NCBI GenBank assembly: GCA_945901725.1
Contig: CAMDLK010000005.1
Location: 1-56,380, forward strand
Direction: 5' to 3'
From: Bifidobacterium breve
Lineage (GTDB): Bacteria; Actinomycetota; Acidimicrobiia; Acidimicrobiales; Ilumatobacteraceae
DNA: 56,380 nucleotides
Made by a program: the position numbers and the translations under genes. The first letter of the stretch is position 1, and each line of letters begins with the position of its first letter. The notes beneath the pieces are model-generated. The model saw only the letters and a program-made list of their open reading frames with translations, made no database searches and was not told where the DNA came from. Of this stretch, positions 22,620 to 49,550 are shown one piece after another.

Positions 22620-24170
22620 ATGCAGGCCATCTCTATTGGTCATGCGGGCATTCTCATTCGCACACAAGGGATCACCATTGCGTGTGATCCATGGTTTGAA
22701 CCAGCGTTCTTCGGTTCGTGGTTCGTCTTTCCGCGCAATGATCAATTAGCGCCAGACATCATGCACGACGTGTGCAACCCTGACTTTCTCTACATTTCGC
22801 ATTTACACGGCGACCACTTCGACGCAGAGTTCCTGACGAAACACATGAACAAGAACACCACAGTGTTGTTGCCAGATTTCCCCACACGTGAAATGGAACG
22901 CGAATTCAACAAACTGGGTTTTCGTAACTTCTTTCGCACCATTCGCGCCAAAGAACATGTCATCGCTCCGAATGTCACTATCGCTATTCACACAGAGGTA
23001 TCAATCACTGATGGTCCCGGTGGCGATTCAGCTCTCATGGTGTCTGACGGTGAAGCACGACTTGTCAACCAAAACGATTGCCGCACCAATGACCTCACGG
23101 CGTTACTTGAACACGGCCCTGTTGACCTGCATTGGTTGCAGTACTCGGGCGCCATTTGGTACCCCATGGTCTATGAAATGGATGCTGCGAAAAAGAAGCA
23201 ACTGTGTGTAGAAAAAGTGGAAAGCCAATTCGCACGTGCCACTCGTTATGTCGAAGCAATCCACGCCACCACTGTTGTTCCCTCAGCTGGCCCACCATGT
23301 TTCTTAGATCCTGAACTGTTCAGCCTCAACATGATCACCGGCGACGAAATCAGTATCTTTCCTGATCAGACAGAATTTCAACGTCGCTTGTCAGACGAAG
23401 GTCGCTTAAACGCAGCGACCACTATTCCCGGAACCACCTTCACTGTTCTTGGTGGCGGCGTCACCGTGGAACAACCAATGTCGGGCGAAGACATCACGCG
23501 CATCTTCACGCACAAGGCTGAATACCTAACTAAGTACCAAGCCGATTACGCACAGTGGCTTATCGACGCTCGCGCTTCCTGGGCTTCACCATCCACTGAC
23601 ATTATTGGCACGTTGAAGTTGTGGTGGGAACCATTGATGGCAATGGCCACCAGTGTGCGCACCGGTATCGGCGCCAACTGCCTCATCAACGCTGGCGACA
23701 TTCAGATCTATGTCAACTTCGTTGATGGCCTCGTACAGCCATACACAGACCAACCGTTCGGTTTCCGTTTCGACATTGCACGTGACTTAGTAGAAAACGT
23801 CGTTGCCAAGCGCGCCGTCGACTGGTCGAACTCGTTGTTCCTATCTGCACGTTTCACCGCATGGCGCGCAGGTGATTACAACGAATACATCTACAACTTC
23901 TTCAAGTCGTTATCAGTAGAACGCATGTCGCGTACAGAGTCCGAAGCCAAGAGCAAGCTAAACGGCGTTCCTTCGAACGAAGGCGACATTGAAATTGGCG
24001 ACTACACCGTGCAGCGCCGATGCCCTCACCGCAATGCTGACCTCAGCGTGTTTGGTGAAATCGACGGCGATGACCTTGTCTGCACATTGCACGGTTGGCG
24101 TTTTGATCTTGAGACCGGCGCATGCCGCAACGCCGACGAACGCCCCATCCGCGTCAAAAAACGCAGCTAA
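22620..24170 (+). CDS. metallo-beta-lactamase-fold/Rieske fusion, CMAH-like
   Basis: A 516-residue fusion. The N-terminal part is an MBL-fold domain with HLHGDHFD (His61, His63, Asp65, His66) and further SAGPP and middle-domain sequence resembling the UlaG/CMP-N-acetylneuraminate hydroxylase group. The C-terminal 60 residues are a Rieske [2Fe-2S] domain: Cys468-x-His470 in RRCPHRNADL and Cys488-x2-His491 in CTLHGWRFD. Animal CMAH, which hydroxylates CMP-Neu5Ac, has the same two modules but with Rieske first. No sialic-acid genes are visible in the window, so the substrate is unknown; an iron-dependent monooxygenase acting on a sugar or amide is a reasonable guess. Both metal sites look intact. 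Confidence 0.86.
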   Translation: MQAISIGHAGILIRTQGITIACDPWFEPAFFGSWFVFPRNDQLAPDIMHDVCNPDFLYISHLHGDHFDAEFLTKHMNKNTTVLLPDFPTREMEREFNKLGFRNFFRTIRAKEHVIAPNVTIAIHTEVSITDGPGGDSALMVSDGEARLVNQNDCRTNDLTALLEHGPVDLHWLQYSGAIWYPMVYEMDAAKKKQLCVEKVESQFARATRYVEAIHATTVVPSAGPPCFLDPELFSLNMITGDEISIFPDQTEFQRRLSDEGRLNAATTIPGTTFTVLGGGVTVEQPMSGEDITRIFTHKAEYLTKYQADYAQWLIDARASWASPSTDIIGTLKLWWEPLMAMATSVRTGIGANCLINAGDIQIYVNFVDGLVQPYTDQPFGFRFDIARDLVENVVAKRAVDWSNSLFLSARFTAWRAGDYNEYIYNFFKSLSVERMSRTESEAKSKLNGVPSNEGDIEIGDYTVQRRCPHRNADLSVFGEIDGDDLVCTLHGWRFDLETGACRNADERPIRVKKRS

Positions 24171-35715: not shown

Positions 35716-36897
35716 GTGCAACGTAAACTTCAAAAACACTTGACAATAATTAGAATTTCAGTGCTAACGCTTTTGGGAGGCGCGACTAACTATCTTTTTC
35801 ACATTCTGGTAGCAAGGTCACTCGGTCCAATCAAATACGGCGAAGTAGCTACAACTTTGGGCATTATGTCGATAATTACTACCTCAGGAATTGTTTTTCA
35901 AACTTCTGCGTCCAAGCAAACGGTCATAAGTCTTGACAATTCTCCAAGAATGGGAATAGATCAATTCTCAAGGAATTTAACTCGTGGCGCAATCTTTACT
36001 TTTTTGACTGTTTTATTACTGTCACCTTTACTCGCAAACTTCCTACACCTAAGTCCGCTTCTTTTCCTACCTGTGGCTTTGTTCAGTTTTCCAGCCCTGC
36101 ACGAATCTTTGGCCACTGGTCGACTTCAAGGAATGAACCGATACGAAACTACGGCGATATATTCGTTTGTTCAAAGCCTCGCAAAGCTATGTGCAATAGG
36201 AGTTAGCGTTGCAATTGGTGCTTCTACTTTTGGTTTAATCTCAATCATTGTTGTCTTCGCGACTCTAATTGTTATCCATGAGATTCGAAAAACTTCACAT
36301 GGACCGGCAATCCAAATGGCCTTTACCGATTCAGTTATTTTGAAACAACTATTTGTTGTTGTAATGATCTTGATTACTCAGAGTCTTGATGTTCCACTAG
36401 CTCGTTTCTCGCTTGGTGAACTTGAAGCAGGTAAGTTTGTTGCTGCTTCACAACTGGGGAAAATTACACTCGTCCTGCCTTTTATGTTGGCCCAGTTTGC
36501 TTTCCCGCAACTAGTAAAGGATTCGCTCTCTGGAATTCGTACCACATTCAATAGAGTCATTATGGAAATACTTCTGGCATCAACAGCAGTTAGTTTAACT
36601 CTCTTATTATTCCATGAAACTATTGTCAGTATTCTTCTAGGTAACGAATTTGCGTCTAGTTCAGCAGTTACGTGGCAAATGTCTCTAGCGTTTACGCCAC
36701 TAAGCCTTGCAAATCTTTATCTGTTGGACTGTGTTGCTAGGGGACGAATCAGGCATTCCATGCATGTTGGTCTCGCACCAATCATTCTGATAGTTATGGT
36801 GACCATATTTCCGGGCAATATAAGCATGTTGGTGGCATCATGCTTCATATCAACACTTCTATTCTTGTTTCTAACGCTTCGCATTTCTCATGATTGA
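35716..36897 (+). CDS. Wzx-like polysaccharide flippase
   Basis: A membrane protein of 393 residues with about twelve hydrophobic helices, of the MATE-like oligosaccharidyl-lipid flippase superfamily. The N-terminus TNYLFHILVARSLGPIKYGEVATTLGIMSI is typical (GPxxYG in the first loop). It is shorter than many Wzx proteins. A GTG start is used; no strong ribosome site is apparent, so translation may begin slightly downstream. The 3' end overlaps the convergent GT2 gene by 27 bases. Its presence beside an ABC exporter means the locus holds parts of two export routes. Confidence 0.84.
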   Translation: MQRKLQKHLTIIRISVLTLLGGATNYLFHILVARSLGPIKYGEVATTLGIMSIITTSGIVFQTSASKQTVISLDNSPRMGIDQFSRNLTRGAIFTFLTVLLLSPLLANFLHLSPLLFLPVALFSFPALHESLATGRLQGMNRYETTAIYSFVQSLAKLCAIGVSVAIGASTFGLISIIVVFATLIVIHEIRKTSHGPAIQMAFTDSVILKQLFVVVMILITQSLDVPLARFSLGELEAGKFVAASQLGKITLVLPFMLAQFAFPQLVKDSLSGIRTTFNRVIMEILLASTAVSLTLLLFHETIVSILLGNEFASSSAVTWQMSLAFTPLSLANLYLLDCVARGRIRHSMHVGLAPIILIVMVTIFPGNISMLVASCFISTLLFLFLTLRISHD

Positions 36898-37593
36898 TTT
36901 CTTCTTGATTTTGATGACGTCCAAAGCCATTGTGAGTGCTGAAGATAATTTCACCGAACTCGTAAAATCGAAATTCACATTTACCGGTTCCTCAATAACT
37001 ATGAAGTCTTTCTCATGTGCGATGACCAAGAGTTCGAGATCGAATGCAAAGCCGTCTGTCCGAACATAAGGTAGACAATCCTGTAAAACCTTCTGCTTAA
37101 ACATTTTCAATCCAGTTTGTGTATCTTGAATTGTCAGTCCAAAGAGAATACGGACAATCAATTTGAAGATTTGACTTTGAACACGTCTACCAAATGGATA
37201 CGAAACACTTGAATCTTTATGTGTCTTTGAACCGATTACAATGTCAACTGGTAGATCAACTGCTGTGATTCTTGAGTAAAAGTGGCTGATTCCTCTGCAA
37301 TCAATGTCTAGATCGGCGTCAAGAAAGCAGACATATTCACCAGAAGCTTCCTTCCACCCGTTGATTATCGAGGCCCCTTTGCCAAGATTCCCAAAATTTT
37401 TAACTACTCTAAGATGATGATTCTCAATTGAGTCCAACAGATCTACGGTGTTATCTTCGCTGCCATCATCTACAACTATGACTTCATACGGTACGTACAA
37501 TGACTCCAAAGTCTCAAGGCATCTTGATACGGACTCAATAATTGTCCGAGACTCATTGAAGGCCGGCATGACAACCGATATGGCAAGCGACAT
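36871..37593 (-). CDS. GT2 glycosyltransferase, polyprenyl-phosphate-sugar type
   Basis: A GT-A-fold glycosyltransferase of 240 residues similar to dolichyl-phosphate glucosyl/mannosyl transferases. Seen are VVMPAFNESRTI, EVIVVDDGSEDNT, NLGKGASIINGWKEASGEYVCFLDADLDID (DxD) and DTQTGLKMFK. Such enzymes make an undecaprenyl-phosphate-linked hexose used by GT-C membrane transferases, two of which may lie further right. The ATG at 37593 is preferred to the TTG at 37599. No membrane segment is visible. Confidence 0.88.
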   Translation of the reverse strand: MSLAISVVMPAFNESRTIIESVSRCLETLESLYVPYEVIVVDDGSEDNTVDLLDSIENHHLRVVKNFGNLGKGASIINGWKEASGEYVCFLDADLDIDCRGISHFYSRITAVDLPVDIVIGSKTHKDSSVSYPFGRRVQSQIFKLIVRILFGLTIQDTQTGLKMFKQKVLQDCLPYVRTDGFAFDLELLVIAHEKDFIVIEEPVNVNFDFTSSVKLSSALTMALDVIKIKKKSIMRNAKR

Positions 37594-37604
37594 TGTCAAG
37601 AGTC

Positions 37605-42115: not shown

Positions 42116-42760
42116 ATGAACGTTATAGAAGCACTGCAAATCTCTCCTCTGGGAATGACAATTCGGTTGATTCGCAGTCGTTTTTTGTCTTTGTCCTGGG
42201 CTGTAAGCGGACGCCCCATGCCCATGCCTCCTCACAAGAAAGTGCGCGCGATTGAGGACGCAGCAATTCATATTCACGCCACAGTCTTCATTGAGACAGG
42301 AACATACCGGGGAGACACCTCAAAGATTTTGTCAAAGAGAGTGCACCAAGTTGTTAGCGTCGAAATCGATAAGCGATTGGCAGCACTCGCAAGAGAGCGT
42401 TTCAGTAATTCAAACGTTGAGATCCTAGAAGGAGATAGCGCCGAACTAATGAACTCAATAGTTTCCCGTTTCAAAAATCAAGTTTGCCTATACTGGCTCG
42501 ATGGCCACTATTCAGCCGGTGTAACTGGCGGTGGAATTAAACCAGTTCCCGTTCAAAGAGAATTGGAGGAAATACTCCCGTTTCTAAAATCAAGTGATCT
42601 AATCATCATTGATGACATCAGAGAGTTTGATGGTAAGAACTATCCTTCGCTAGAAAGCCTTACATCGTACATCACTCAAATTCGACCCGATCTCGGTTAT
42701 AGAGCTCTGAATGACATGCTCTTTATTGGTGCACCTATATCAGGCTTATTTGATTTCTAA
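42116..42760 (+). CDS. SAM methyltransferase-like protein
   Basis: A 214-residue protein with a class I methyltransferase-type core: ETGTYRGDTSKILSKRV (motif I-like), QVVSVEIDKRLAALARERF, EGDSAELM and YWLDGHYSAGVTGGG, LIIIDDIREFDG. The pattern matches the Methyltransf_24-like proteins found in cell-surface loci. It lies 11 bases after the GT-C-like gene and ends in a 4-base overlap with the convergent gene remnant. Substrate unknown, presumably a sugar of the polymer. Confidence 0.78.
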   Translation: MNVIEALQISPLGMTIRLIRSRFLSLSWAVSGRPMPMPPHKKVRAIEDAAIHIHATVFIETGTYRGDTSKILSKRVHQVVSVEIDKRLAALARERFSNSNVEILEGDSAELMNSIVSRFKNQVCLYWLDGHYSAGVTGGGIKPVPVQRELEEILPFLKSSDLIIIDDIREFDGKNYPSLESLTSYITQIRPDLGYRALNDMLFIGAPISGLFDF

Positions 42761-43263
42761 CTTGCTCGACACATGTTGTTGACATTACGAGTATTAACTT
42801 CCGCCAGAACCACATCACTTACCCAAGTTCCAACTACAACTAACTTTTTTGTAAGAACTGGTTCAAAGAAGAGCGGGCTAAGAGAACCAGGATCAAGTTT
42901 GTCCATGTCATCCATGCCTAGAATTTGACGATAATTTTTGAGACCAATAACATGAGTGATGTCGTTGTCAACAAGCCATATCAGTGCTTGGCACTCACTC
43001 TTGGCCTCCAATGCTTTTAATTCATCAGTCGCGCTACTCTCGAAAAGACCATTCGCCATTGGGGCTCCAATAAAGACTTGTTCCATCCAGCTCTGAGTTG
43101 GCAGGGTGGTAGGAAGAAAGATGAATCGAGAATCGGGAGACGACCTCACAATTTCTGAGATCTCTTTCCATGGTTTGTAAGTGTCCACTATTCGACGTCC
43201 ACCCAAGGGATTCAAGTCAAAAAATCTAAAAATAGATGGTTGGATAAGAACAATGAGCCCAGA
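42757..43263 (-). pseudogene. C-terminal remnant of a GT-C-like paralogue
   Basis: An open stretch with no convincing start codon. Translated from the stop codon upstream at 43264-43266 it begins GLIVLIQPSIFRFFDLNPLGG, which is the end of a membrane helix followed by the DLNP element of the neighbouring 734-residue protein (IIDLNPWAGR). Further matches are APMANGLFES to VPIANSLFGS and LVDNDITHVIGL to LNERQITHVLLP. The N-terminal membrane part is missing and the last 40 residues diverge. It appears to be the tail of a paralogue or of a partial duplication, standing directly behind the intact gene. A short TTG-initiated protein from 43215 is possible but unlikely to be functional. Confidence 0.72.
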
Positions 43264-43289: not shown

Positions 43290-45494
43290 CTACCTTTCAT
43301 TGTCTAGTTTCTTTTCGAAAAGATCCTGATTCCTGGGTTCCAGAACTTGAACGGGCGTCACGTCTGTAGTTATTACTGCAAAACATAATTTTCGTGGATC
43401 GACTCCAGCTCCTAAAGATTCAGGAGTAACACAAGTCGAGATGTTCGAAATACGAATTGTTTGTGCGCTAGAAACTCTCCAGAAAAGTGTTTTACTCTGC
43501 CCATGAATCTTCACGACTGATTTGACGCCATCACGTTCAACAAGAATTTCATGGTTAGGAAGCAATGTCACAATCTTGACAGATAGGTCATAAAAGAAAG
43601 TCTGATTTAGGCTCGTCGGTAGCACCATCTGAACCTCGCCGCCCGTATTCCACCTGTGCTCGCCTTCTATAGGTAATAGATCACCAGTGAATTGCAGTTG
43701 TGTACTGTACGGTCCAATCCCACACGACTGGCAACTAGGCTGGCTGTTTCTCAGGACTCTATAAAGGTCAAACTTTACACTTTCCCCTGTATACACACCT
43801 GGCAAAAATTCAGAAGCCTGGAGCATAAACAATTCGCCAGGCAAATCGTACAATCGGCTATGACTATTCCAGATTGCATTTGTCAAGTATCGGTCTGGCA
43901 ATAGAACATGAGTAATTTGTCTTTCGTTTAAGAGTGAGGATAACGCAAGGGGGCCACGACTCGCTGCTTCAGCTATCTCCTGCTCTTCCATTGATCCGAA
44001 AAGGGAATTGGCAATTGGGACATTTACATAATTCTGAATTGATCGTGAGAGACCGTTTAGAGGTAAGACTAAGAGACTGGGCTTTACTTCTTTCTTGATA
44101 GCTGCATTTAGAGAACTAAATTCCTTCTGAGGTTGAAAGATGTCTCGACCAGCCCACGGATTGAGATCAATTATTGCGAACACCAGCAAACCGAGACCTA
44201 ATAAACTCCACAGTTTTTTGCCTAGACTTTTCACTTCTCTCTTGTTTGTAGAATTCTGCCACGCAATTAGGGCGATCAGTGGAAGAACTATTTGGGCAAT
44301 CAAACCAAATCTTCCCTGATGTCGAACTCCTATCATCGCATATCGAAGAAGGTATGTGATATTCGGAAAAGCAAACGGACCTAAATGAAGTATGGGTTTT
44401 AGTGTCATGAACATCGCTACAATCGCAACGATTGACAGAAATCTCATGTAAGACTTGTTTTTATTCCGTATCCCCAGCAGTAAAGCCCCAAGCCCCATCG
44501 CACAAATGAACCCTCCATAAGTGGGGTACTCAACGGCAAAGTCAACGTCATATCTGCCGGGCTGAGGAAAAAGGAGATGGCTAGGACCGGTACGGAACCA
44601 ATCAGTTAGTTGGCCAGAAAATTGAGACAGAAAGCTTAAATCTATATTTTTGGCCCTCCTACTATTGCCGAATTGGTTTCCGGCGTTTGCCAACGAATCC
44701 AAAAAGCGAACAAAAGTTTGGATTAGAACAACCGAAACAACAATGAACAAACCCCCCGTTCTTAGCTTAAAGCCAACCTTTCTCTCTGAATTCGAAGGGA
44801 TTGTGAGCATTCCAATTGCCAGAATCAATATTGCAAACCATGCAAAGTAGGGGTCGAATAGAACGCATAGTGCGAAAGCAAGAGAGAGTTTCTTTGCATT
44901 CTTCAAAAACCCCGTTGATTGCGAATCCATAACGGCTATCAACATCAACACCAAAGGCCACATATGGACATAACTGGGATGATTCATTACCCGTAGCCTC
45001 AGCCAAGGAAGAGCCTCAATGATCAACACTGCGCTCATTGCAAAAATGGGCCTTAAGCCGATCCGCTTGGCCAATGCATAGGTTGCTAACCCTGTGCCAG
45101 CCCAACCTAGATATATGAGCACGTTTGTGGTCGCTATTGGTGAGAGAAAATGAGAGCCAAGCCAAAGGAAACTTCTAGGAATTAGTTGCGTGAACTCCTG
45201 CCATCTCCACGAAGATTCACCAAACGGATAGTTTGTGAATAAGTTTCTTGCCCACGGAGTTGCTTGATTGCTGTAAATTTGGGCAAATTGTATTGATGCA
45301 CTGACATCTGTCGGTTTCCATCCGATAGTTGCATTACGATTTTGGACCAGCACTGGCCACATGAACCAGAGTGGATATGCCCCACAAAAAATTGCGATAA
45401 ATATTTTTCGGATTACGTCATTCGAGCGCGCACCCGATTGCAAAATTGATGGCCTAGGAAAAGAGCGTTGGAAATTACTACCTAGAGCTGACAT
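43290..45494 (-). CDS. large membrane protein, GT-C-like
   Basis: A 734-residue protein with about ten to eleven hydrophobic helices in its first 450 residues and a large extracytoplasmic C-terminal domain (from IDLNPWAGRDIF to the end) that contains several Cys residues near residues 600 and 690. The first external loop has IGWKPTDVSASIQFAQIY and NYPFGESSWRW, a layout like GT-C glycosyltransferases or YfhO-like proteins. No exact family is recognised. The upstream GT2 gene overlaps its start by 17 bases, and the remnant of a paralogue lies downstream. It could transfer a sugar from a polyprenyl-phosphate donor outside the membrane. Confidence 0.72.
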   Translation of the reverse strand: MSALGSNFQRSFPRPSILQSGARSNDVIRKIFIAIFCGAYPLWFMWPVLVQNRNATIGWKPTDVSASIQFAQIYSNQATPWARNLFTNYPFGESSWRWQEFTQLIPRSFLWLGSHFLSPIATTNVLIYLGWAGTGLATYALAKRIGLRPIFAMSAVLIIEALPWLRLRVMNHPSYVHMWPLVLMLIAVMDSQSTGFLKNAKKLSLAFALCVLFDPYFAWFAILILAIGMLTIPSNSERKVGFKLRTGGLFIVVSVVLIQTFVRFLDSLANAGNQFGNSRRAKNIDLSFLSQFSGQLTDWFRTGPSHLLFPQPGRYDVDFAVEYPTYGGFICAMGLGALLLGIRNKNKSYMRFLSIVAIVAMFMTLKPILHLGPFAFPNITYLLRYAMIGVRHQGRFGLIAQIVLPLIALIAWQNSTNKREVKSLGKKLWSLLGLGLLVFAIIDLNPWAGRDIFQPQKEFSSLNAAIKKEVKPSLLVLPLNGLSRSIQNYVNVPIANSLFGSMEEQEIAEAASRGPLALSSLLNERQITHVLLPDRYLTNAIWNSHSRLYDLPGELFMLQASEFLPGVYTGESVKFDLYRVLRNSQPSCQSCGIGPYSTQLQFTGDLLPIEGEHRWNTGGEVQMVLPTSLNQTFFYDLSVKIVTLLPNHEILVERDGVKSVVKIHGQSKTLFWRVSSAQTIRISNISTCVTPESLGAGVDPRKLCFAVITTDVTPVQVLEPRNQDLFEKKLDNER

Positions 45495-46362
45495 AAGTGA
45501 ATCCCACTAACAATCTGAGTGATATCACACCGACAAAGCTCAAAGGATTATTTATAATTCTTGTCCACTTACCATTTTCAAGAAATACGGAGATATACCG
45601 ATAAAAGAATCCAAGTTGTCTCTTTATATCTGAATCGTTTTCCCACTTGCTTTTATAAGCATCCATACTGCCAGAGTAATAAGACTTTTTTGCTAGATAC
45701 CCCTTCAAAGATTGTTCATCTTCATTATGGAAAATTCCAGCCAAGGATCGCGGACGCGTAATGCCTCGACTTTGAATGAAATCATCCAACGGCCAATTCT
45801 CTACTGAAGACCCGGAGTTAACCAATGTTAGTCTCCCCATTTTCTTGAATCGCTTATCAAGGTCCCAGTCTTCGGGTCCTGGCGGAAGAGCCGCATCGAA
45901 CCCACCAATTTTCTTGAAGTCGTCCAATTTGAAGAATCTCACTCCATCTATGCATGTTCCTGAATAGAAAGACCTTTCAAATCGACGAATTCTCGCAAGT
46001 TTTCCCTTGCCAAGGACTATTTCTTCAATGTGTAACGCAATTGGTTTGTTTGACAAGAACTCATTGACACAAGTCTCAATGAGATTCGGCGTGAGAATCA
46101 TGTCTGCATCAATGAACATCCCATAAACACCGGTTGCGATATCTATAAGGCCATAATTTCTCTGAGCAGATCGTTCAGGGCCTTTGTCGAAAACTAGTTC
46201 CGTGTATTGACGTGACAATTCCTTTGTTCGGTCCGATGAATTGTTATCAACAACAATGATTTCAATGTTGGTCCAGGTTTGAAGTTGAATTGATTTAAGG
46301 CAATTCTCAATATTCTTTTCTTCGTTCTTAGTCGTTATGACTACTGAGACTTTTTCTTGCAT
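45478..46362 (-). CDS. GT2 glycosyltransferase
   Basis: A GT-A-fold glycosyltransferase of 294 residues. It has VSVVITTKNEEKNIENCLKS, NIEIIVVDNNSSDRTKEL, GMFIDADMILTPNLIE with the DxD metal motif, and GGFDAALPPGPEDWDLDKRF, whose EDWDL-like acid residues are the catalytic-base region. No membrane segment except possibly the last 20 residues. The operon continues on both sides (3 bases from the next GT2 gene, 17-base overlap with the GT-C-like gene). Confidence 0.88.
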   Translation of the reverse strand: MQEKVSVVITTKNEEKNIENCLKSIQLQTWTNIEIIVVDNNSSDRTKELSRQYTELVFDKGPERSAQRNYGLIDIATGVYGMFIDADMILTPNLIETCVNEFLSNKPIALHIEEIVLGKGKLARIRRFERSFYSGTCIDGVRFFKLDDFKKIGGFDAALPPGPEDWDLDKRFKKMGRLTLVNSGSSVENWPLDDFIQSRGITRPRSLAGIFHNEDEQSLKGYLAKKSYYSGSMDAYKSKWENDSDIKRQLGFFYRYISVFLENGKWTRIINNPLSFVGVISLRLLVGFTYVSSR

Positions 46363-46365
46363 GAC

Positions 46366-47343
46366 CTACCGCAACTTACTAACTAGTTGACCCCGATGGA
46401 ACAGGCCTCTTAAAAACTGATATCCGTATGAAATATGAGTAGCGATTACATACGGAAATGCGGCGATGGCGACTATCGGTTTTTCAAATCGCATTAGATC
46501 CAAAACTCCAACAACAACTGCACTGAGATAAACACCAATACCCACAAGTGCCAACAATCCGATAAAGGTAGGAAGTAACAACGTGACTGGAGCGATTAAG
46601 AACATCAGGAAGACTAAAGATGGAAAGAAGTACTGGATGCGACGTGAAGTTTCTGGAAGATGCCGTGCAAAATAGCCGCGATGCAAACCATAAGCACCCA
46701 CTTGTTTCATATGTCGGCGCAGTCCTTCTCGTCTGTGATGCCAGACAATCAGATCAGGAACATACGTCACCTTGTGACCTGCGCGGAGCAGTTTGAGGCA
46801 CAAGAAAGTGTCTTCTCCCGGCCAGTACGGTGAGTCAAAACCGTCAACGTTGATAAATACATCACGTTTGATCATGAGGTTCACTGATGGCCAGTCATCA
46901 ACATCTCTCTGTTCACCAACAGGTCGATATCGTTCAGGCGAACCACCTGTAATGCGACTCGAGAAAACAACACCCGATACCTTCTGCTTAAATGAGTCAC
47001 TTACTGGCGTCATAGCTGGACCGCCAAGTGCAACCGAGCCAGAAGTGAATTTCGTTAGGGCGAGGGATAAGAGATTTGATTCCGGATACGAATCATCGTC
47101 TAGAAAAACTAGGTATGTACCTGCTGCCGCTCGCGCTGCAAGGTCACGTTTTTCAGCTGGTCCTACTCTGCCAGAACTCATCATCTCTATGCGTGGTTCT
47201 TCTGGCCATTCAGAGACTTGTTCGTCGTTAGTGACTATAAAAAGTTCCCAATCCGAGTAATCCAACCCAACTATGTACGGAACAGTTTCGCGCACATAGT
47301 CGTTTAGTTCCTTGACAGGGATGATGATTGAGAAAGTGGGCAT
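46366..47343 (-). CDS. membrane-associated GT2 glycosyltransferase
   Basis: GT2 enzyme of 325 residues starting at the ATG at 47343. The catalytic part has FSIIIPVKELNDYVRETV, TYLVFLDDDSYPESNLL (DDD metal motif), NVDGFDSPYWPGEDTFLCLKLLRAGHKV, and WHHRREGLRRHMKQVGAYG, resembling the QxxRW-type region. Two or three hydrophobic helices follow at about 235-300 (FLMFLIAPVTLLLP, LVGIGVYLSAVVVGVLDL). The gene follows the radical SAM gene after 21 bases, so the two are probably expressed together. Confidence 0.88.
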   Translation of the reverse strand: MPTFSIIIPVKELNDYVRETVPYIVGLDYSDWELFIVTNDEQVSEWPEEPRIEMMSSGRVGPAEKRDLAARAAAGTYLVFLDDDSYPESNLLSLALTKFTSGSVALGGPAMTPVSDSFKQKVSGVVFSSRITGGSPERYRPVGEQRDVDDWPSVNLMIKRDVFINVDGFDSPYWPGEDTFLCLKLLRAGHKVTYVPDLIVWHHRREGLRRHMKQVGAYGLHRGYFARHLPETSRRIQYFFPSLVFLMFLIAPVTLLLPTFIGLLALVGIGVYLSAVVVGVLDLMRFEKPIVAIAAFPYVIATHISYGYQFLRGLFHRGQLVSKLR

Positions 47344-47364
47344 CACGCCAGCCGAGTTGCGAAA

Positions 47365-48900
47365 TTACGCAGAGACAGAAACTCGTTCTGCTTCTGTTTG
47401 TTTTCCTTCATTTCGAGTGAGGTTGAAAATATGTTGACGAACACGGCGAATAGCTCTAATGCTGTACGTAAACAAGAATTGCCAATCTCTCTTGCGCATC
47501 TTTCCAAGGAACATGATCTGACGGGCAATAAATCTGGGATTAAACGTAATTGAGTAAATCTCGCGAATTGCCTTGTAATACTCATCGTGAGGCAGTGGCG
47601 CTGTCACGATGAGTTTGCTCATGTCATGGTCGTCGTAGTCGTCTGTGAGAAGAATGCCTTGGTCAATGCATTCTTGGTGATATGGGGTGAAGTCAAGCGG
47701 TGTGCAAATCGTGACTTGCAATGTTCGAGCAAGTCCTCTATACATCAAGCTTTTGACAGTCTTAACAGTGAGATCAAGTTGCTCTCGGGTCTGCCAGTAA
47801 TAACCAACCATGATGGTGAGGTGCGGATGTAAGCCGTACTTAGTCATCCACGTGAGACAGCTCTCAACATGTTCCATTTGATAGCCCTTATTGAGACGCA
47901 TCAGTGTCTCATCATCTGCAGCTTCAAATCCGAGCAACACAAATCTAAAGTTTGCCTTTGCCATCAACTTAATTGTCTCTTCATCGAGGTACTCAAATCG
48001 TGTATTGATACCGAAGTAGCAACCTTTTTTGTGCAGTCCTCTGTCAATGATTCCTTGAGCGAATTGACGAGCTTCGCGACCGCGATACCAAACACCAGAG
48101 TCATCAAATATCTCTTTAACTCCGTGATTTTCGATTAGATCTTGGTATTCATCAAGACTGCGCTCAACAGACATCATTGAGAAAGTGAGGTCTGGGCCGT
48201 TGTAGCGACAGAATGTGCACTTACCAAACATGCAGTCTCTAACCACACTGCTTGCATATGTTCCCGGGGTATTGAGAAAGTTTCCATTCTCGTATGCGTA
48301 ATCTTTCCAGCGAACAAGATCGCGGTCGATTAAAGGAGTTTTATCCAATGGTTCAACTTGAATGAAGTTGCCAGTCGAACGAGACTCGGTCTCGGATGTA
48401 CGAATTGTGAGACCTTCAATATCTGAGGTCATTCGCCAAAACGGATTCGTTGCCATTTCATTAACAAGTCGCAACAGTACAAAGTCCAAGTTATTGCTTC
48501 GTAGAACAACATCAATATCTGATTCATCGAGTGTTTCTTCTGGTCGACGCATCGAGTGATACCCAGTAATCACAATCGTCGTACTCGGAAGAAGTTCTTT
48601 CAGTTGACGCGACGTCTTCCAATAAAACTTCATTACAGGTGTCGTGCTTTCGAACACCACAACATCTGGTTGCCAAGCAACTAAGTCGCTTAGCCATTTG
48701 TCATAATCCTTGAGTTGCGCATTTCCATCATCCCAATACACATCATGACCAGCTTGATCAAGAGCTGTCGCAGCTTGTGCATGAATAACTGGTAACAGAT
48801 ACGTTGGTTTTTGGAAAAACTGAACGTTGCGGTTCTGTGACACCATTGCCTTTTGGCCCTGGTCATTTACGATTGGTGGGTACGAAATTGCGACTTTCAT
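47365..48900 (-). CDS. B12-binding-type radical SAM enzyme
   Basis: A 511-residue radical SAM protein of class B layout. Residues about 1-150 form a Rossmann-like cobalamin-binding-type domain (no DxHxxG motif seen, as in many of the family), followed by the radical SAM core from about 215 to 430. The cluster motif is Cys223-x4-Cys228-x2-Cys231 (CMFGKCTFC), one residue longer than the usual CX3CX2C, followed by NGPDLTF. The S-adenosylmethionine GxIxGLP-like strand is replaced by RFVLLGFEAAD. A strong AGGAGAG ribosome site precedes the ATG. It is flanked by a flavoprotein reductase gene (8 bases) and GT2 genes, so methylation or another radical change of a glycan or its lipid carrier is plausible. 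Confidence 0.9.
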   Translation of the reverse strand: MKVAISYPPIVNDQGQKAMVSQNRNVQFFQKPTYLLPVIHAQAATALDQAGHDVYWDDGNAQLKDYDKWLSDLVAWQPDVVVFESTTPVMKFYWKTSRQLKELLPSTTIVITGYHSMRRPEETLDESDIDVVLRSNNLDFVLLRLVNEMATNPFWRMTSDIEGLTIRTSETESRSTGNFIQVEPLDKTPLIDRDLVRWKDYAYENGNFLNTPGTYASSVVRDCMFGKCTFCRYNGPDLTFSMMSVERSLDEYQDLIENHGVKEIFDDSGVWYRGREARQFAQGIIDRGLHKKGCYFGINTRFEYLDEETIKLMAKANFRFVLLGFEAADDETLMRLNKGYQMEHVESCLTWMTKYGLHPHLTIMVGYYWQTREQLDLTVKTVKSLMYRGLARTLQVTICTPLDFTPYHQECIDQGILLTDDYDDHDMSKLIVTAPLPHDEYYKAIREIYSITFNPRFIARQIMFLGKMRKRDWQFLFTYSIRAIRRVRQHIFNLTRNEGKQTEAERVSVSA

Positions 48901-48908
48901 GTGCTCTC

Positions 48909-49550
48909 CTAAAAAAACGTTTCCATTAGTATTCGACCGCCTGGCACGCCACGTTCGCGAAGAATTTGTACGGTGTCGGTGATCATTTGCCTGTTTCCAC
49001 AGAGGTAGTAATGGGACTCAGGATTCATCTGTTCCCTTGATAGTACTGAAGTAATTCTCTCACCATTCCCGTTTGCGGGTTGGCTGACAGCGGTGATGTA
49101 GCGACTTGGCTCGTAATCATCAGATTCATATTTTTCATCTTCATGACGGATGCCGTGATACAGCTTGTAATCGAGCCACGGAAAGGACTTTATGAAGGAA
49201 TGAAAAGGCGCAACGCCAGTTCCACTTGCGATAAAAACAAAAGAATCTTCTGCTATGGCTTGAATTGGTAAACAAAACTCACCATATGGTCCACCAATTT
49301 CGACAAGATCGCCAGGCTTACAACGGCCGAGAGCTGGGGTCACGATTCCATCTTCAACTTCACGAATCAAAAAATCAATGAAGTCATCATCCGCCGCAGA
49401 ATACATGGAGTATTCACGGTTGATTCCAAGTTCCTTGGTACCGACACTGAAACACTGGCCAGCTTTGATTGGCACGTTTGGGCGTTCTGTGCGAAGCCTA
49501 AAGGTCGACTCAGAAAGCCTTATATTCTCGATGACCTTGAAACTATCCAT
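48909..49550 (-). CDS. ferredoxin-NAD(P)H reductase-like flavoprotein
   Basis: A 213-residue two-domain flavin reductase. FAD-binding domain: INREYSMYSAADD with the RxYS signature, then GGPYGEF; NAD(P)-binding domain: FVFIASGTGVAPFHSF and HYYLCGNRQMI, ending in an aromatic residue (METFF). There is no [2Fe-2S] domain fused. It is the first gene of the operon that contains the radical SAM enzyme, whose start is 8 bases after its stop, so it probably supplies the low-potential electron or reduces its cobalamin, directly or via a ferredoxin. Confidence 0.9.
   Translation of the reverse strand: MDSFKVIENIRLSESTFRLRTERPNVPIKAGQCFSVGTKELGINREYSMYSAADDDFIDFLIREVEDGIVTPALGRCKPGDLVEIGGPYGEFCLPIQAIAEDSFVFIASGTGVAPFHSFIKSFPWLDYKLYHGIRHEDEKYESDDYEPSRYITAVSQPANGNGERITSVLSREQMNPESHYYLCGNRQMITDTVQILRERGVPGGRILMETFF

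Follow-up and report, generated by a model that had tools for sequence, protein, structure and literature searches.

What reaction does a B12-type radical SAM enzyme carry out in a glycan operon, and what does the flavoprotein encoded right beside it contribute? This question is raised by a gene pair in the window, i.e., the whole stretch of 56,380 nucleotides analyzed here. The answer favored below, with confidence slightly above even, is that the radical SAM protein (termed type I), its FNR-type flavoprotein (FNR), and a GT2 glycosyltransferase (GT2a) would constitute a conserved envelope-glycan module that remodels a lipid-linked sugar, FNR serving as the electron donor.

The radical SAM protein (511 aa; 47365–48900, minus strand) and FNR (213 aa; 48909–49550, minus strand) are encoded 8 bp apart, exactly at the coordinates and in the frames given by the initial annotation. 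They head a row of minus-strand genes, in the order FNR, radical SAM, GT2a, GT2b, and a 734-aa multi-helix membrane protein. GT2a (326 aa; 46366–47346, minus strand; PF13641/PF13632/PF00535) has a hydrophobic region, presumably embedded in the membrane, at its C-terminus. GT2b (294 aa; 45478–46362, minus strand; PF00535, 6e-23) is a second GT2 glycosyltransferase and a frequent neighbor of the module, while the membrane protein gene occupies 43290–45494 on the same strand. The successive gaps measure 8, 18, 3, and −17 bp, the GT2b and membrane protein genes overlapping by 17 bp, and the gap sizes downstream of the radical SAM gene are compatible with a single operon. Both GT2 genes that the initial annotation had placed downstream are confirmed by Pfam and NCBIfam, but its GT-C label for the 734-aa protein found no support: this protein has no family match in Pfam or NCBIfam, its AlphaFold model (pLDDT 39) is too poor for a GT-C check, and its family stays unverified. 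Next to it, at 42757–43215 on the minus strand, lies a 152-aa ORF (TTG start) that resembles part of its C-terminal region (28% identity over 93 aa, E 1e-6) and is possibly a duplicated or decayed tail of the larger protein. The same glycan region also holds the window's own copy of a DPM1-like GT2 (242 aa; 36871–37599, minus strand; PF00535, 9e-26).

The surroundings look like those of an ordinary chromosome. The left flank bears ClpC-like and RadA-like genes and the right flank FHA/PP2C/FtsW-like genes, the ORFs being judged by eye. A chimeric or contaminating contig is not supported, as ordinary actinobacterial-looking chromosomal genes are present on both sides. The G+C content is 0.40–0.47 in the glycan region, compared with about 0.51 in the flanks; a lower G+C content is common for glycan clusters. 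Elsewhere in the window, at 22620–24170 on the plus strand, metallo-hydrolase-like, SCP2-like (Rv3818), and Rieske [2Fe-2S] protein sequences are found together.

The radical SAM protein can be assigned to its superfamily without difficulty. Pfam Radical_SAM (PF04055) matches at 3e-13, with 50.6 bits against a cut-off of 29.5, and the cluster-binding cysteines C223, C228, and C231 are invariant in 33 relatives. Together with the N-terminal Rossmann B12-binding domain, this gives the architecture of the class 1 cobalamin-dependent enzymes, in keeping with a fold match over the whole length to TsrM, OxsB, and CysS (Z 23–24). The B12-binding profile (PF02310) is borderline: it reaches 31.6 bits (1.6e-7), marginally below the cut-off of 32.1, in the Pfam search and 33.9 bits, above the cut-off, in the genome scan. 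The host genome encodes other strong B12-binding proteins according to the same scan, which makes the use of cobalamin by this enzyme plausible. Among structurally known relatives, the residue located under the cobalt varies (PMC13331322).

The [4Fe-4S] motif CMFGKCTFC (residues 223–231; 48208–48234, minus strand) follows a CX4CX2C spacing, one residue longer than the CX3CX2C of HpnJ and BchE. In the alignment of the 33 relatives (74% mean column identity), its three cysteines, F225, and G226 are invariant, the consensus C-x-F-G-[KN]-C-[TS]-F-C-R-Y-N-G is present in 33/33 sequences, and the downstream NGPDLTF is conserved, with NG invariant. As the CX4CX2C spacing is kept in all 33 relatives, it results neither from chance nor from a sequencing error. 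The extra residue noticed initially is thus real, although it is not unique: a sister clade, termed type II, also shows CX4CX2C (CX7 or CX13 between the first two cysteines in some members), so that the longer spacing is the mark of a clade rather than a one-off. The AlphaFold model of the enzyme has a pLDDT of 82, the cluster loop being its least confident part.

Relatives of the window enzyme are scattered across the bacterial tree. The genome scan returned 42 loci, at 62–76% identity, in about a dozen phyla, including Pseudomonadota, SAR324, Nitrospinota, Patescibacteria, Verrucomicrobiota, Kiritimatiellota, Lentisphaerota, Elusimicrobiota, and Spirochaetota. Within Acidimicrobiia, only one of 395 genomes carries the gene, namely that of the window. 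In a maximum-likelihood tree, the type I proteins form one monophyletic group (100/100) with type II as sister clade (100/99), and HpnJ is the closest named branch, long branches leaving the deep joins unsure. The window protein joins Thiotrichaceae, weakly (93/77). This grouping, the 1/395 occurrence in Acidimicrobiia, and the G+C content below that of the flanks suggest, as the simplest reading, that the glycan cluster was probably gained horizontally. A viral or mobile-element origin was considered and rejected, since viral contigs hold no relative and plasmids only distant homologues (HpnJ, BchE, or others, at most 27% identity).

The association between the radical SAM enzyme and FNR is nearly constant. 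Pfam finds only FAD_binding_6 and NAD_binding_1 (PF00970 and PF00175, both over cut-off) in the 213 aa of FNR, in agreement with the first description of a flavoprotein devoid of ferredoxin domain, and the nearest PDB profiles are BenC/MmoC/flavodoxin-reductase modules. With partner genes assigned by profile-based calls, FNR lies within 350 bp of the radical SAM gene in 34 of 41 scored loci and at no more than 2 kb in three others; three loci are cut by a contig end and one, L015, has none. FNR therefore accompanies the enzyme in 38/39 informative loci, contig-end cases being left out and the truncated L043 included. The distance matrices of both proteins are correlated (r = 0.84 in a Mantel-type test, with 0/2000 permutations as high), even if FNR evolves faster (48% vs. 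71% mean identity). The proposal that the pair forms one unit is thereby borne out. No FNR was seen in the type II loci inspected, which indicates that not every member of the family requires FNR; it can be proposed, from this comparative evidence, as a dedicated partner and electron donor of type I. The exceptional locus, from a Spirochaete MAG (L015:7001–8506), contains the type I gene alone, with no FNR or glycosyltransferase within ~7 kb, and the same genome carries GT2a and GT2b together at another site (L093).

Type II proteins display the motif CWWGxCxFCSW, with the pattern C-W-W-x...C-x-F-C, in which the second cysteine mostly follows the first after four intervening residues. Their genes sit with GT2a, a DPM1-like GT2, and a flippase, in the recurrent order flippase, DPM-like GT2, GT2a, radical SAM, and PMT-type transferases are found near some of these loci (one checked by Pfam). 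Genes of both types occur side by side at L032:5940–9390, next to a DPM–GT2a fusion and FNR.

A more demanding question is whether the glycosyltransferases are partners or bystanders. GT2a was initially chosen for its nearness to the radical SAM gene, and its co-occurrence was then tested on whole genomes of the sampled taxa. A profile of GT2a detects it in 34 of the 41 holder genomes, several of which have it away from the radical SAM gene, and in 0/197 other Acidimicrobiia. Among 77 Nitrospinota genomes, 11 carry the type I enzyme and 13 carry GT2a, the two additional genomes having GT2a directly beside a type II gene; the GT2a and CX4CX2C radical SAM sets hence coincide (13/13 vs. 0/64), the GT2a of one genome, G482, being cut by a contig end. 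Among 374 Microgenomatia genomes, GT2a is found in 63/63 of those with a type I or type II enzyme, compared with 15/311 of the others, and 47 of the 58 same-contig pairs are less than 600 bp apart. The corresponding Fisher p-values (~5e-15 for Nitrospinota and ~2e-57 for Microgenomatia) are overstated, related genomes being treated as independent. In the 15 Microgenomatia genomes with GT2a and no radical SAM enzyme, five were inspected and none had a radical SAM gene near GT2a. Four PVC-group loci (L031, L033, L034, and L035) and the Spirochaete locus L015 show no glycosyltransferase nearby, and GT2a is present elsewhere in four of these five genomes. By co-occurrence, GT2a is the real glycosyltransferase partner of the radical SAM enzyme. 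The link to envelope glycan assembly drawn initially is real and is carried by this one GT2 family; a lack of glycosyltransferase neighbors in all relatives, which would have refuted it, is not observed.

Other glycan genes indicate what the module may act on. GT2b homologues are encoded in 14 further loci. A DPM1-like GT2, resembling polyprenyl-phosphate-sugar synthases, is fused to the N-terminus of GT2a in seven loci (L019, L032, L041, and L086–L089) and adjoins the module in L008, L009, L018, L021, and L028; elsewhere, the neighbor is a GtrB-like GT2. Such fusions and neighbors, together with the flippase and PMT-type genes, point to a polyprenyl-linked glycan as the probable target of the module.

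None of the nearest named radical SAM families accommodates the window enzyme. The best curated profile is HpnJ (TIGR03471), at 105.8 bits, far below its cut-off of 577.6, followed by BchE (TIGR02026; 96.1 bits against 481.35). HpnR, PhpK, and further models come next, every one well under its cut-off. A fold search with the AlphaFold model ranks AprD4 first (Z 29.2; 414 residues, 2.9 Å, 16% identity), ahead of MgmA, TsrM, OxsB, and CysS (Z 23–24). A sequence search of solved structures gave no close homologue, its top phmmer row being a spurious restriction-enzyme match, and the search for close homologues with an established different function found none. The enzyme is, consequently, close to HpnJ and BchE by profile and to AprD4 by fold, while being a member of none of these families. 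No description of a radical SAM/FNR/GT glycan system was found in the open-access literature searched.

Among the closest known systems is the HpnI-HpnK-HpnJ operon of the bacteriohopanetetrol cyclitol ether pathway, also observed in genome data, where a lipid first receives a sugar from a glycosyltransferase and this sugar is then remodeled by a B12-type radical SAM enzyme. These three enzymes build, then remodel, a lipid-linked glucosamine (PMC12583986), and HpnJ is one of the few non-methylating members of the cobalamin-dependent radical SAM class, in which methylases predominate (PMC13142503). In the present case a GT2 partner, GT2a, co-occurs with the radical SAM enzyme and may correspond to the glycosyltransferase of the HpnJ pathway. 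In contrast, the window enzyme has CX4CX2C instead of CX3CX2C and an FNR of its own, and no HpnK was seen in the operon. BchE, the anaerobic Mg-protoporphyrin cyclase, is another B12-type enzyme with non-methylating chemistry, and can run in vitro on a ferredoxin/ferredoxin reductase/NADPH system (PMC13142503), but its spacing is CX3CX2C and the window locus has no chlorophyll context. A hopanoid can be rejected as the general substrate, because squalene-hopene cyclase (PF13243) gave no match in the host genome, which is 87% complete, nor in 18 of the 29 genomes searched for it; HpnH scored below its cut-off.

The best reading, drawn from these comparisons, is therefore qualified: HpnI/HpnJ-like logic would be applied to a non-hopanoid, polyprenyl-linked glycan. 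GT2a, frequently together with a GT2 of the DPM1-like or GtrB-like kind, would act at the inner membrane face, where it would load or extend a sugar on a polyprenyl-phosphate carrier. The radical SAM enzyme would bind [4Fe-4S]-SAM, and probably also cobalamin in its N-terminal Rossmann domain, then abstract a hydrogen atom from the sugar, or from the adjacent carrier, and remodel it. Electrons from NAD(P)H would reach the [4Fe-4S] cluster, cobalamin, or both through FNR, either directly or by way of a small carrier, and a flippase and membrane transferases would export and attach the modified glycan. For the remodeling step itself, C-methylation is considered slightly less likely than a rearrangement without methyl transfer, such as ring contraction, dehydration, or a similar change. 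What the analysis establishes is that the gene unit is conserved and co-occurs with GT2a, along with the clade and fold class of the enzyme; substrate, reaction, electron flow, and cobalamin binding are inferred.

The initial annotation had offered C-methylation as its example of a radical modification in envelope glycan synthesis; the glycan link has withstood analysis, but C-methylation is only one option. A cobalamin-dependent C-methylase acting on an unactivated sugar carbon, with FNR restoring the reduced cluster as well as cob(I)alamin at each turnover, is unlikely. It would be in line with the majority behavior of the class, with the fold matches to MgmA, TsrM, and CysS, and with the presence of HpnR among the weaker profile matches, and its double electron demand would suit a dedicated FNR; nevertheless, methylation is not the chemistry of its closest named relatives, whether these are taken by profile and tree (HpnJ and BchE) or by fold (AprD4). 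That last relative suggests a cobalamin-independent sugar dehydratase with a vestigial Rossmann domain, performing radical chemistry on a diol, in which FNR would reduce the cluster only. AprD4, a radical SAM diol dehydratase, clearly leads the structural matches (Z 29.2 vs. 23.9) and acts on an aminosugar, and at least one type I member (L010) has a low B12-binding score (18.6 bits). AprD4, which belongs to secondary metabolism, is not known to use cobalamin or to have a flavoprotein partner. The borderline PF02310 score and this closest fold may count against cobalamin use by the window enzyme. However, HpnJ, counted as cobalamin-dependent, is likewise low on PF02310 (23.3 bits), the AprD4 profile (NF033070) gives the window protein only 29.1 bits for a cut-off of 500, and a common fold is no proof of function, which makes a dehydratase of this kind rather improbable.

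The two remaining readings displace the sugar from the center of the reaction. NGPDLTF had inclined the initial annotation toward RiPP maturases, in which case a peptide encoded nearby would be modified and the glycosyltransferases would be incidental. The motif of the RiPP radical SAM C-methyltransferases (TIGR03975), in which more than three residues separate the first cysteine from the second, resembles the CxFG/CWWG...CTFC...NG pattern seen here, and this model does match, at 37.6 bits for type I and 72.3 bits for type II (cut-off 281.85). The window protein fits the profiles of HpnJ and BchE much better, though, and the partners kept across phyla are GT2a and FNR, the former pointing to a glycan and not to a peptide. 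Moreover, no conserved unlabelled short gene appears among the clustered ORFs of at least 110 aa, a size limit under which very short precursors would escape. This leaning was abandoned, a RiPP maturase being extremely improbable. An enzyme altering the polyprenyl carrier or a membrane lipid, and not the sugar, would agree with the lipid substrates of HpnJ, HpnR, and a ladderane-type model, which all match weakly, but the exclusion of hopanoids as general substrate and the glycosyltransferase partners make it very unlikely. Remodeling of the lipid-linked sugar is thus preferred. Taking both clades together, a widespread and not yet described glycan-editing pathway can be put forward tentatively, with a little under even confidence: type I would work with a dedicated NAD(P)H flavoprotein, type II, common in Microgenomates, without it, and both would remodel a polyprenyl-carried sugar before export.

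If this holds true, radical SAM chemistry would not be confined to hopanoids but would be a recurrent step of envelope glycan assembly in many phyla, and the envelope glycans of many uncultivated bacteria would contain a sugar of novel structure. Unusual envelope sugars of candidate-phyla bacteria, Nitrospinota, and their relatives would thereby be given an origin that can be tested. B12-type radical SAM enzymes are known to be hard to reduce in vitro; FNR would be one of the few natural electron donors assignable to such an enzyme, and could help their reconstitution. The co-occurrence of GT2a offers a concrete hypothesis on the substrate for experimental work.

Glycan loci of this sort may commonly involve B12-type radical SAM chemistry. 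Further distant genes of this kind, with the CX3CX2C spacing, are located inside glycan clusters at L022:13033–14745, L027:2992–4542, and L023:6421–7875, and others occur in plasmid glycosyltransferase clusters of Lawsonia intracellularis (L119) and Solidesulfovibrio (L114), the Lawsonia protein grouping with HpnJ in the tree. Finally, a 148-aa membrane protein that no Pfam family matches is found repeatedly next to the module in SAR324 loci and in Thiotrichaceae-related ones (L010:7900–8346, L012:2560–3006, L002:1–435, and L003:3243–3689).
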